Positions 2,683 to 42,497 of a DNA stretch of 64,000 bases are shown in pieces. How positions within the stretch are numbered: position 1 is the first letter of the stretch; each line of letters begins with the position of its first letter. The position numbers and the translations under genes were made by a program. The notes under the pieces were generated by a model. It had not been told where the DNA came from, made no database searches, and was given only the letters and a program-made list of their open reading frames with translations. Source of the DNA: Alteraurantiacibacter aquimixticola (GTDB lineage: Bacteria; Pseudomonadota; Alphaproteobacteria; Sphingomonadales; Sphingomonadaceae); NCBI RefSeq assembly GCF_004965515.1, contig NZ_SSHH01000001.1, positions 375,280 to 439,279 on the forward strand, given 5' to 3'.

Positions 2683-3969
2683 CTAAACGGTCTCTGCCAC
2701 AAGCCCCTTGCGCGCCAGCACGGCAGGCGCGGTTTCCTTCAGCCCCATGGCAACAAAGCCGCTGACGATGGAGAGGCCGATCAGCAGCCACAGGAAGCTG
2801 TCCATGCCGAATGTGTCGTTCAGCGCGCCGCCGATGATCGGGCCGAACACGCCGCCCAGTACCTCGCAGCTGCCCATGGCGAGGCCGAGGACGGTGGCGT
2901 GGTGGACCGGCTTGAAGGTCTCGGAAGGAATGGTGGCCATGAAGATCGGGAACACGCCGTTCACCGCCCAGCCGACGAAGAAGATCGCCGCAAGGCCGAA
3001 AGCGCCGCCTTCGTAATACATCGCGCCGAGCGGGCCGAGCACGGCCAGCAGCGGCAGCCAGACCATCACCGGCTTGCGGCCGATCACGTCGGACAGGCCG
3101 GCAATGGTGAAGCTGTAGATCGCCGCGGCAATGCCCAGCGAACCCATGATCCAGCTCATGGTGGAAGGATCGTATCCTTTCACCTCGGTCAGGTAGAGCG
3201 GCATGAAGGCCCAGGTGGTCACGAAATGGGCGACCATCAGCACGCCCACGACCACGCAGATCCACATGTTGCGGACCTGCAGTGCGGCGGCGACATCGGC
3301 GAAGTAATTGCCCGATCCGGCCTTCTCCTCCTCCGCGGTTTCGGCGGGCTTTTCCGGCTCTTCCAGCATGAACCAGATGAGGGCTGCGGACAGCAGTCCG
3401 GGTACGGCGGCGAGATAGAAGGCCTCACGCCAGCTGAAGGCGGTGGCGAAGGCCACCAGCACCACCGGGGCGAGGAAGCTGCCGAGCAGGTTGGAACCGA
3501 GGTTCTGCGCCACGCCCTGCGCCAGGCCGCGCCGCTTGGGATCGACTTCGCTTGCCACCATTGCATGGCTGATCGGCATCACGCCGCCCTCGGCCGCGCC
3601 CATCAGCAGGCGGGCGGCAAAGAGGAAAACGAAGCTGGTGGCGATGCCCGACAGGAAGGAGCAGAGCGAGAAGGCGATTGTGGCGATCACCAGCAGCAGC
3701 TTGCGCTTGCCCAGGCTGTCCGACAGGCGGCCGACGAAGAAGGCCGCGATCGCCCAGCTGAAGGACAGGCCGCTGGCGAGCAGGCCGATCTGCGTCTGCG
3801 AAAGCTGCAGCTCCGGCTCCACGAAAGGCATCAGCGCGTTGAGCGCCTGCCGGTCGAAGAAGACGATGCCGAAATTCAGCGCCAGCAGGAACACCAGCAG
3901 CGTCTGGTAGGCGGGTGAATTCTTCATCCAGTTGCCGGTCGGCTGCCCGGCCGCGGTCGTGCTTGCCAT
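2683..3969 (-). CDS. MFS transporter
   Basis: A 428-residue major facilitator protein with about twelve hydrophobic segments. The first segment (about residues 22-42) is followed by the typical loop FFDRQALNAL, and GRLSDSLGKRK gives the cytoplasmic loop 2-3 signature; a second DVIGRKP-type loop lies in the C-terminal half. The family imports organic anions or aromatic acids by proton symport, or exports drugs. Its place between a VOC protein and three cupin dioxygenase genes favours uptake of the cluster's substrate, but specificity is inference. Expected in the inner membrane. Confidence 0.88.
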   Translation of the reverse strand: MASTTAAGQPTGNWMKNSPAYQTLLVFLLALNFGIVFFDRQALNALMPFVEPELQLSQTQIGLLASGLSFSWAIAAFFVGRLSDSLGKRKLLLVIATIAFSLCSFLSGIATSFVFLFAARLLMGAAEGGVMPISHAMVASEVDPKRRGLAQGVAQNLGSNLLGSFLAPVVLVAFATAFSWREAFYLAAVPGLLSAALIWFMLEEPEKPAETAEEEKAGSGNYFADVAAALQVRNMWICVVVGVLMVAHFVTTWAFMPLYLTEVKGYDPSTMSWIMGSLGIAAAIYSFTIAGLSDVIGRKPVMVWLPLLAVLGPLGAMYYEGGAFGLAAIFFVGWAVNGVFPIFMATIPSETFKPVHHATVLGLAMGSCEVLGGVFGPIIGGALNDTFGMDSFLWLLIGLSIVSGFVAMGLKETAPAVLARKGLVAETV

Positions 3970-3981
3970 TGTTCTTATGTC

Positions 3982-4527
3982 CTATCCGAAGGGCCTGATG
4001 GGGTTGGAGCCGTCCCAGTCGCGGCTCGCTTCCCAGAAGCGGGTGAAAGTCTCATTCATGCCGGGGGTGACCGGTAGCAATTCGAGGAAGCCGGAGGCCG
4101 GGCCCGATCCGTTGTCGAGATAGACCACTTCGCCGCCCGTCGGCACGGCGGCGCGATAGGCTTCGTGGTAGCCGCGGGTCTGGTAGTCGGCGCTGGCGGC
4201 ATCCACATCCGCGCAGGCGATGCCGAGATGGTGGAAGCCCCAGCCGCGCAGCTTGCGGGTTTCCCGGTAGACGCTGGGATTGTCGTCGAGCGGCTGGATC
4301 AGCTCGATCAGCATGTGCCCGGCAAAGCCCATGGCGAGAGCGATGTCGGCGGTGCTTTCATTGCCGCGATAGGTCTGTCCCGGGGTCAGCAAATTCGGCA
4401 GGACGAAGAAGGGGCCGGCCTTCATGTCGCGCACCCAATGGCCGATCGCGGCCCTGAGGTCGGGCACAATGAATGCCGTTTGCGCCACGCCACCCATCGG
4501 CTGGCCGAAGCCGAGCTCATCTGCCAT
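3982..4527 (-). CDS. VOC (glyoxalase/bleomycin-resistance fold) family protein
   Basis: A 181-residue protein with the paired beta-alpha-beta-beta-beta modules of the vicinal-oxygen-chelate fold: VAQTAFIVPDL near the start of module 1, HMLIELIQP closing it, and GWGFHHLGIACADVD starting module 2. Members are metal-dependent dioxygenases, isomerases or lyases. The ATG at 4527 is chosen over one at 4563 because a strong GGGGAGG ribosome-binding site lies just upstream. It is the first gene of the minus-strand cluster and faces the aldolase gene across a 111-base gap that must hold both promoters. Exact reaction unknown. Confidence 0.8.
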   Translation of the reverse strand: MADELGFGQPMGGVAQTAFIVPDLRAAIGHWVRDMKAGPFFVLPNLLTPGQTYRGNESTADIALAMGFAGHMLIELIQPLDDNPSVYRETRKLRGWGFHHLGIACADVDAASADYQTRGYHEAYRAAVPTGGEVVYLDNGSGPASGFLELLPVTPGMNETFTRFWEASRDWDGSNPIRPFG

Positions 4528-23461: not shown

Positions 23462-23552
23462 CCGTTCGTCCTGAGCTTGTCGAAGGACCGCTTTCGTCTT
23501 GCCAAAGGGAAGAAGGGAAAGAACGGCCCTTCGACAAGCTCAGGGCGAACGG
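23462..23552. repeat. Inverted REP pair, CCTGAGCTTGTCGAAGG family
   Basis: Left arm 23463-23486 (CGTTCGTCCTGAGCTTGTCG...) and right arm 23528-23552 (CCTTCGACAAGCTCAGGGCG...) face each other across about 41 bases, between the convergent tilS and L,D-transpeptidase genes. The same family occurs at 42410-42497 and flanking 38047-38331. Confidence 0.85.
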
Positions 23553-37996: not shown

Positions 37997-38023
37997 CCGC
38001 TCAGCCTGAGCTTGTCCAAGGCC
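37997..38023. repeat. REP arm upstream of the GIY-YIG gene
   Basis: A 27-base arm of the CCTGAGCTTGTCGAAGG family. It matches the reverse complement of 38351-38377 at 25 of 27 positions. It ends 23 bases before the GIY-YIG start codon. Confidence 0.85.
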
Positions 38024-38046
38024 ACGCGCCAAGGTTAGCCCGCCCC

Positions 38047-38331
38047 ATGGCCTTCTACGCCTACCTCCTGCGATGCAATGACGGCAGCTACTATGCCGGG
38101 CATACGGACGATATCGATTTGCGCGTGGCCCGGCACAATAGCGGGGCTCTCGGCGGATATACTGCCGCGCGCCTGCCGGTGACCTTGGTCTGGTCGGACA
38201 CATTCCCTACGCGCGAGGAGGCGTTTGCGGCGGAGCGTCGGATCAAGGGGTGGAGCAGGGCCAAGAAGGAGGCCCTGATCGCCGGGGACTGGGATCTGGT
38301 GTCGCGGTTGGCGCGAAATCGGCAAGGGTGA
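38047..38331 (+). CDS. GIY-YIG nuclease family protein (UPF0213-like)
   Basis: 94 residues, a stand-alone GIY-YIG domain: FYAYLLRCNDGSYYAGHTDD gives the two-strand YLL...YAG motif, RVARHNSG carries the conserved Arg, and TREEAFAAERRIKGWSRAKKEALI has the catalytic Glu and the usual basic tail. It would be a small metal-dependent endonuclease. The gene lies between two inverted REP arms (37997-38023 and 38351-38377) and is otherwise isolated. Cellular role unknown; DNA repair, or an association with the REP repeats, are possibilities. Confidence 0.9.
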   Translation: MAFYAYLLRCNDGSYYAGHTDDIDLRVARHNSGALGGYTAARLPVTLVWSDTFPTREEAFAAERRIKGWSRAKKEALIAGDWDLVSRLARNRQG

Positions 38332-38350
38332 GGGGCTGAAGTTCGCGCGT

Positions 38351-38377
38351 GGCCTTCGACAAGTTCAGGCTGAGCGG
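38351..38377. repeat. REP arm downstream of the GIY-YIG gene
   Basis: Inverted partner of 37997-38023, beginning 20 bases after the GIY-YIG stop. Orientation of the two arms is the same as in the gene-free REP pairs at 23462-23552 and 42410-42497. Confidence 0.85.
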
Positions 38378-38640
38378 AGGTGGGGTGAGTGACGGTGGCA
38401 GCGGCAACCGGCGACTTTCCTACAGCGCAGCTGTCCCGATAGGGCAAGCCTCGGCTCTTTCACACGTCCGCACCCCCACGCGTTCTAGCTTCATGGAACG
38501 GTGCGAAACGGAAGGTTACACGCTTTCGCGGTCTTCCGAGCGGGAACTCGCGCAATTCTGCGCCTCTCGCCCCCGTTCAGCTTTTCACATTTACTCCGGT
38601 TTCGTGTTCCACCTCAGCGGGAAACGGGCGCGTTCTCGGT
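38378..38640. other. Intergenic stretch without a supported gene
   Basis: Part of the 359-base gap between the GIY-YIG gene and rimO. An open frame on the plus strand from 38349 runs through the REP arm and the duplicated rimO tail and has no family resemblance, so I do not call it. I see no tRNA or clear terminator here. Confidence 0.5.
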
Positions 38641-38700
38641 CGCCCTATCGCTTCGCTACTTGAGGCGATGCTGTCCGCCCTATCGCTTCGCTACTTGAGG
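38641..38700. repeat. 25-base direct repeat: duplicated rimO tail
   Basis: CGCCCTATCGCTTCGCTACT plus TGAGG occurs at 38641-38665 and again at 38676-38700. The second copy contains the rimO stop codon and its last codons (minus strand); the first copy, 10 bases beyond, is a non-coding duplicate of that 3' end. Confidence 0.85.
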
Positions 38701-42409: not shown

Positions 42410-42497
42410 CGTTCGCCCTGAGCTTGTCGAAGGGCCGTACTTCCCTTTGCTGAAGAGGTGAAGGAAAAGCGGTCCTTCGACAAGCTCAGGACGAACG
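42410..42497. repeat. Inverted REP pair, CCTGAGCTTGTCGAAGG family
   Basis: Arms 42410-42433 and 42474-42497 face each other across about 40 bases in the gap between serS and surE, so an RNA hairpin would separate the two coding parts of that transcript. Same family as 23462-23552. Confidence 0.85.

Follow-up and report, generated by a model that had tools for sequence, protein, structure and literature searches.

A small nuclease gene and its flanking arms

Why does a gene for a small GIY-YIG nuclease lie between two inverted copies of a REP, and what would the one have to do with the other? The question is raised by a locus in the window (the whole 64-kb stretch of Alteraurantiacibacter aquimixticola DNA that was analysed), in which two inward-facing arms, 37997-38023 and 38351-38377, show reverse-complement identity at 25/27 positions on direct reading. 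This arrangement, first described from the letters alone (referred to hereafter as the sequence-only reading), is confirmed and can be taken further, as the match extends to 33 nt in each arm (37997-38029 and 38345-38377). Two more inward pairs of the family, claimed in the same reading, were recovered as real by a core search. The features discussed below are:

37997..38029, + strand: left REP arm, class 1 (CCGCTCA tag, core CTGAGCTTGTCCAAGG, tail CCACGCGC), 31/33 positions identical to the right arm
38047..38331, + strand: GIY-YIG nuclease gene, 94 aa, with Y6, Y16, R26 and E63; AlphaFold2 mean pLDDT 93.9
38345..38377, - strand: right REP arm, inverted copy, core CTGAACTTGTCGAAGG
23462..23552, no strand: empty inward REP pair, class 2 arms; single long hairpin, z -10.4
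42410..42497, no strand: empty inward REP pair, class 2 arms; z -9.3

The gene opens with ATG, and its product matches the Pfam GIY-YIG domain with E=2.7e-15; we take Y6, Y16, R26 and E63 to be catalytic-type residues of this superfamily. A search of NCBIfam returned no match, and nothing in the whole window reached the gathering threshold in Rfam. A short direct repeat, CGCCCTATCGCTTCGCTACTTGAGG, is present in two copies at 38620-38700 of the window, directly downstream of rimO.

The arm family in the source genome

The arm core, CTGAGCTTGTCGAAGG, was found at 9 sites in the window when up to 3 mismatches were allowed, against 0.64 expected from shuffles. The whole genome (3.43 Mb, 5 contigs; G000 among our genome handles) holds 54 core sites at up to 2 mismatches, with 0 for a reversed-pattern control. 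Neighbouring core sites less than 400 bp apart form 15 inward pairs and 1 outward pair, leaving 22 sites unpaired; the starts are 47-61 bp apart in 14/16 of the neighbouring pairs, and the other 2/16, with starts 323 and 347 bp apart, enclose a GIY-YIG gene each. These spacing and orientation counts mean that the source genome contains two filled REP pairs and many empty ones. The second close GIY-YIG copy, also arm-flanked, lies outside the window at G000:C1:491337-491618 (locus L032), has class 2 arms and occupies one of two conserved sites to which we return below.

According to the sequence-only reading, the nuclease locus is an ordinary REP pair with a nuclease gene as its filling. This stands insofar as the inward pairs belong to the same family, but not as regards subclass: the arms of the window unit (CCGCTCA...GGCCACGCGC) differ from those of the two empty window pairs (CCGTTCG...GRCCGYNYTT), the latter being similar to the arms around the genome's other GIY-YIG gene. 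Being of class 2, the two empty pairs would, by the subclass rule set out below, belong to that second unit and not to the window nuclease.

Window arms consist of a CCG tag, a 5-bp stem and an 11-nt loop; tags in close-clade arms are CCGCTCA, CCGTTCG, CCGACTG and similar, and the GTAG tag is absent. Two-sided changes in the stem (GNCCT with AGGNC) exceed those in shuffles (21 cells vs 7.1; 23/26 distinct own-genome arms), and 119/130 stem cells pair across all 26 distinct arms, so that a hairpin is supported at the level of the arm family. The single arm of the window unit folds no better than its shuffles, and each of the two empty window pairs folds into one long hairpin. In dispersed pairs (G027 among others) one arm often has a GGAC stem and its partner GGGC or GCAC, the stem sequence thus being often unequal between the two arms.

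How general the flanking is

Within a set of 40 genomes of the genus, 23 genes form the close clade (full-length, at least 54% identity to the window protein; three truncated copies in G003, G036 and G039 are excluded, and G016, with an in-frame stop, is included). Both CTGAGCYTGTCGAAGG-type (CTGAGC) arms were present at 18 of these, one arm at 3 and none at 2, one of which has another inverted repeat. CTGAGC arms were seen at 0/34 of the divergent GIY genes of the genus, 26/34 of which have another inverted repeat with a score of at least 14, mostly a CGTC-tagged palindrome. Use of these divergent paralogues as unflanked negative controls was rejected, since most of them have REPs of their own.

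The pattern extends beyond the genus. In the best 80 of at least 560 matches in named genomes (the named loci), both arms flank the gene in 55, one arm in 17 and none in 8, compared to both arms in 0 and one arm in 7 of 579 displaced control windows; an inverted repeat with a score of at least 14 is found at 63/80 of these best-matching loci and in 1/579 displaced windows. Matches reach Betaproteobacteria bins and one complete Methylomicrobium genome, as well as metagenome bins called Chloroflexi, Nitrospirota and Thermodesulfobacteriota, which may be contaminated. We further located 270 genes, 27 of which were removed for stops or identical context. The remaining 243 are a non-random set (top matches, purposely chosen arm-poor genomes and arm-rich exceptions), whose arms were scored with seven motif classes, one of them (C5) loose: 185 have a matched inverted pair, 43 a single arm and 15 none, against 1 pair and 166 single arms in 996 displaced controls. 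The flank-enrichment check proposed with the sequence-only reading has thus been run, and its outcome is far above the displaced controls (0/579 and 1/996).

The left-arm core starts ~40-50 nt upstream of the start codon in most loci. CGTC-tagged palindromic arms occur at most paralogues having an inverted pair, and in genomes that were picked as exceptions many loci have a GIY-YIG gene bounded by other, often CGTC-tagged, repeats. Right flanks of L206, L255 and L204 carry compound arms, by eye with a second hairpin nested within the outer one. At L337:1420-1900 (Methylobacterium bullatum, another order), a GIY-YIG homologue is, again by eye, bounded by a different inverted repeat of the CCTCAGGATGAGG type.

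Arm class follows the gene

Mapped on the protein tree of the 185 paired genes, arm class requires 16 changes against a shuffled mean of 75.4, with 0/200 shuffles as low, on a tree of a short protein that has many weak forks and in which near-copies aid clustering. Arm class follows protein clade.

A finer comparison was made within the genus, where the expected arm tail of each genome was fixed before counting (class 1, ACGC, as in the window unit; class 2, CCG; class 3, CTG) and counts include the unit's own arms. All 8 genomes predicted from a class-3 gene have 5-56 class-3 arms and only 0-1 class-2 arms. Class-2 arms number 17 in G000, 22 in G025, 8 in G019, 18 in G021 and 12 in G037, and 0 in G029, for which the class-2 prediction had been bracketed. 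Class-1 arms number 2-7 in G000, G009, G016, G021, G036 and G037, those of G009 being only the unit's own two, and 0 in all 7 class-3-only genomes; G007, predicted as class 1, has 0 arms of the class-1 pattern, its own arms having another tail. Class-3 arms also occur in genomes with a class-2 gene (33 in G021, 44 in G037 and 7 in G019) and with class 1 (5 in G036 and 4 in G007), and some further genomes carry a few arms of a class for which no gene was found, among them G013, G014, G017, G019, G029 and G038 with 1-7 class-1 arms. Arm subclass therefore fits gene subclade largely, not wholly.

Gene presence and the number of dispersed arms

Across the family, 397 genomes were scored with up to 13 candidates per genome, and a genome was assigned the close clade at a best E <1e-25, best listed scores being bimodal (1e-28 or below, or 1e-12 to 1e-19). 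The median arm count is 27 in the 137 genomes with the close clade and 0 in the 260 without it, and at least 10 arms are present in 101/137 and 48/260, respectively, a contrast for which p-values disregard kinship between genomes and are hence inflated. Complete genus members have 13-146 arms with the gene (16 genomes) and 0-9 without it (16 genomes), with no overlap, in a comparison from which 7 incomplete genomes were omitted, as was G003, with its 7 arms and a truncated gene.

Exceptions occur in both directions. At least 10 arms are carried by 42/231 complete family genomes without the close clade, 34 of these 42 having distant GIY genes only (best 1.1e-15) and 8 none. A second search of the 42 with a different query found no close gene, and 30 loci fetched from exception genomes gave 0 CTGAGC pairs and one single arm, 100 nt off; the arms in these genomes are possible relics of a lost gene. 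Conversely, fewer than 5 such arms are seen in 27 of the 137 close-clade genomes, and in part of those fetched the gene is bounded by an inverted repeat of another kind. Exact copies of the CGTC class C1 are few: the window's genome has 15, whereas G001 (69% complete) and G035 have none besides the gene-flanking two. Judging from this slight spread in G001 and G035, some arm classes may be mainly confined to the unit itself.

Signs of exchange, empty sites and likely inheritance

In relatives, units of different class occur at the same intergenic site. At one such site, with flanks 88-92% identical, the unit is of the CTGAGC type in L075 and L181 and of the CGTC type in L258; outside the right arm of L181 lies a piece resembling the end of a CGTC arm, likely a leftover of the other unit's arm. 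Different units also occupy a common site in G036 (right arm only) and G037, with flanks 89-91% identical, and in G007 and G023, with flanks 77-83% identical; G003 has a truncated gene and pieces of both arms there. A CGTC-class unit in L139 faces an empty CTGAGC pair at the corresponding place in L191, and the ~670 bp that hold a unit and an extra REP in L280 have a 16-bp counterpart in L198. In collinear DNA, the units of G037 and G021 sit at two neighbouring sites separated by ~0.5 kb; either genome is empty where the other has its unit, and the inserts contain extra DNA besides the units.

A comparison with empty sites in relatives had also been called for, and its result is divided: empty sites exist for these related units, but none that is clean for the window unit. 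rimO is present in 39/40 genus genomes; the 29 other rimO loci compared have neither the window gene nor its arms and lack the TPR-gene neighbour as well, which leaves no clean empty site among them.

Two conserved sites hold 44 and 31 of the 243 genes (by a stricter clustering without arm-only chaining), and many of the units there look vertically inherited. Matches were found in 26 plasmid records, the best of which (56.5% and 54.3%, both Sphingomonas replicons) are at close-clade level, the first adjoining a gene annotated as RNA methyltransferase, and in 23 phage records, at 46.8% for the best. Going by these identity levels, we see no sign that the close clade is carried by phages and little sign of carriage by plasmids.

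Fold and conservation of the nuclease

The AlphaFold2 model has the UPF0213 proteins 1zg2 and 1ywl as its nearest folds, followed by Slx1, and the sequence profile agrees (E 6.1e-20 to UPF0213-type 1zg2/1ywl), so that the window protein shares both profile and fold with this type. It is a stand-alone GIY-YIG domain of ~95 aa, as in UPF0213 / YhbQ-like proteins, and has the domain and the Tyr/Arg/Glu residues of the GIY-YIG superfamily (PF01541). Y16, R26 and E63, which we assume to be catalytic in the superfamily, are retained in 240, 243 and 243 of the 243 genes, respectively. Ten pairwise comparisons among five genes gave dN/dS values of 0.05-0.19, at dS values (0.6-2.3) that are partly saturated. 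Conserved residues and low dN/dS together show the nuclease gene to be subject to purifying selection.

A proposed nuclease-REP unit and its possible spread by break and repair

We suggest that the locus is probably a selfish nuclease-REP unit, that is, a GIY-YIG gene bounded by inverted copies of the REP that its product recognises. At the level of sequence, the analysis shows matched arms, the fit of arm class to clade, dispersed arms that go with gene presence and largely with subclass, different units at one site in relatives, and purifying selection on the gene. The parts of this proposal differ in strength. It is very likely that the nuclease recognises its cognate arm, and the arm that co-varies with the nuclease is the most likely substrate. 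That the unit is mobile as gene plus arms is likely, though with less assurance, and for the nuclease being the driver of REP spread the case is evenly poised. Accordingly worded, the REP-GIY unit of the sequence-only reading is real and recurrent (55 of the best 80 loci and 185/243 genes paired), and the role equivalent to that of a RAYT, also put forward there, remains a matter of inference.

In mechanistic terms, the protein would bind and nick its own REP, the likeliest form of which is a single strand or an extruded hairpin, with arm specificity coming from tag, loop and tail. Breaks at REPs might then be healed by copying another REP-bounded segment, by which either the whole unit or a short empty pair could be copied into new intergenic sites. 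The reaction of GIY-YIG enzymes is hydrolysis of DNA, and no covalent joining intermediate is known for them. Joining would hence be left to the repair system of the host, and we favour such a homing-like break-and-copy over RAYT-like transposition. As with GIY-YIG homing endonucleases, breakage and repair at border-related sites could be the way in which the gene spreads; unlike them, the window unit retains intact sites at both borders and interrupts none. As to insertion into, and disruption of, its own recognition site, by which a homing endonuclease is marked, different units were seen at one site and one unit lies opposite an empty pair whose arms are of a different class, but the borders stay intact.

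The proposed nuclease-REP unit would be parallel to the RAYT REPtrons, without a Y1 transposase. REPtrons comprise a REP-flanked gene, gene-free inward pairs and, where several classes coexist, repeat-specific genes, as described in the main text of Di Nocera et al. 2013 (PMC3733652). Flanking arms, inward gene-free pairs elsewhere and repeat-specific genes are found in our system as well, but the enclosed gene encodes nothing but a GIY-YIG domain, in place of a Y1 HUH enzyme, the arms have no GTAG tag, and no strand-transfer chemistry is known for GIY-YIG enzymes.

The same source divides REPs into a GTAG superfamily, served by RAYTs, and a CGTC superfamily (CGTC tag, 8-9 bp stem, 4-5 nt loop) without a dedicated transposase, in association with which its main text reports no gene; neither "GIY" nor "UPF0213" occurs in that main text (PMC3733652). 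Window arms differ from CGTC REPs in tag, stem and loop. Many arms of the distant GIY-YIG paralogues, in contrast, start with CGTC and are palindromes, this being so for most paralogues that have an inverted pair, and here GIY-YIG genes lie between such arms. What mobilises CGTC REPs was left open by Di Nocera et al. 2013 (PMC3733652, as far as its main text goes), and in the Sphingomonadaceae genomes examined small GIY-YIG genes occupy that place, class by class. We therefore put forward, tentatively and with somewhat less than even confidence, a wider "GIY-REPtron" reading, in which GIY-YIG nucleases would be dedicated, RAYT-independent machinery for much of the bacterial REPs, supplying the CGTC and a third, CCG-tagged superfamily, with each clade moving its own REP and gene by break and repair.

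A self-contained selfish unit could explain the origin and spread of "transposase-less" repeats. It would also provide natural pairs of small nuclease and target repeat whose specificity can be read, and the repeat CTGAGCYTGTCGAAGS, present in 254/397 family genomes, would gain a likely nuclease partner. An old question becomes testable at the bench, namely whether each GIY-YIG protein cuts its own REP and not its neighbour's. A literature search, in which most papers were judged by title, found none linking GIY-YIG genes with REPs, and the arm letters used as a query returned only papers unrelated by title. One table in a Moraxella catarrhalis paper names a GIY-YIG endonuclease and RayT, unlinked in the part concerned (PMC9465073).

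Other explanations

Several other readings of the locus have to be weighed against a mobile nuclease-REP unit. A host function is the first of these. Ssn proteins, reportedly described in a 2025 paper, are said to be GIY-YIG enzymes cleaving single-stranded DNA at a Neisseria repeat (NTS) and to have thousands of homologues, each with its own sequence specificity. The Ssn family probably already includes the pairing of nuclease and repeat. The window nuclease could likewise be a guard that cuts incoming single-stranded DNA at repeats and limits natural transformation, with repeats that shield its own locus and spread by other means. Superfamily and gene-repeat pairing are the same as reported for Ssn: a small GIY-YIG nuclease and a dispersed short repeat, present also at the gene, which in our case is called cognate by inference from co-variation. 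Purifying selection and the retention at conserved sites would suit a host role too. What sets the window clade apart are its CCG-tagged arms with 5-bp stem and 11-nt loop, and the kind of evidence at hand, unit-like exchange and gene-linked repeat copy number. A guard alone leaves the gene-dependent number and subclass of arms and the exchange at sites unexplained, unless spread is a by-product, and we regard it as unlikely.

A RAYT-type or other transposase might instead move the REPs, the GIY-YIG gene being a passenger trapped between two of them. RAYTs are indeed thought to mobilise GTAG REPs, according to the main text of PMC3733652, and arm-rich genomes without a close-clade gene do exist. 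Mere trapping, however, sits poorly with 185/243 GIY genes being paired, in several clades and with REP class following clade, and the arms are without the GTAG tag. Nor did a RAYT profile (enterobacterial RayT only), run over 1.26/3.43 Mb (37%) of the genome and covering 53/54 arm sites, give a significant match (best E 2.5). We consider the passenger reading very improbable.

About as improbable are arms that are purely regulatory, serving as terminators or as operators in self-control of the nuclease, with no mobility. The distance of the left-arm core from the start codon, mostly ~40-50 nt, might speak for this, yet most genomic copies lie away from any GIY gene, termination requires no matched inverted pairs, and differing units at one site as well as empty sites speak against it; its probability is slight indeed. 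A chance neighbourhood of a small gene and abundant repeats, for which the 54 core sites of the genome might be cited, is contradicted by the controls (0/579 and 1/996 windows) and has next to no likelihood.

Reading frames that run through the right arm

In 30/80 named loci (the best 80 of at least 560 matches), the frame of the nuclease gene stays open for at least 80 codons beyond the point where it normally stops and runs through the right arm or beyond it; one of these frames reaches the end of its contig. By Pfam, the four read-through products scanned (3001 to 3810-4239) have, after the GIY-YIG domain, a SpoU methylase in L204 and L217, a pseudouridine synthase in L230 and a JAB domain in L207. 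Such frames represent either fusions that occur naturally or a pair of overlapping genes, the latter being the annotation in NZ_CP155752 (L336). In L230 the right arm is translated as GPSTSSG-like residues.
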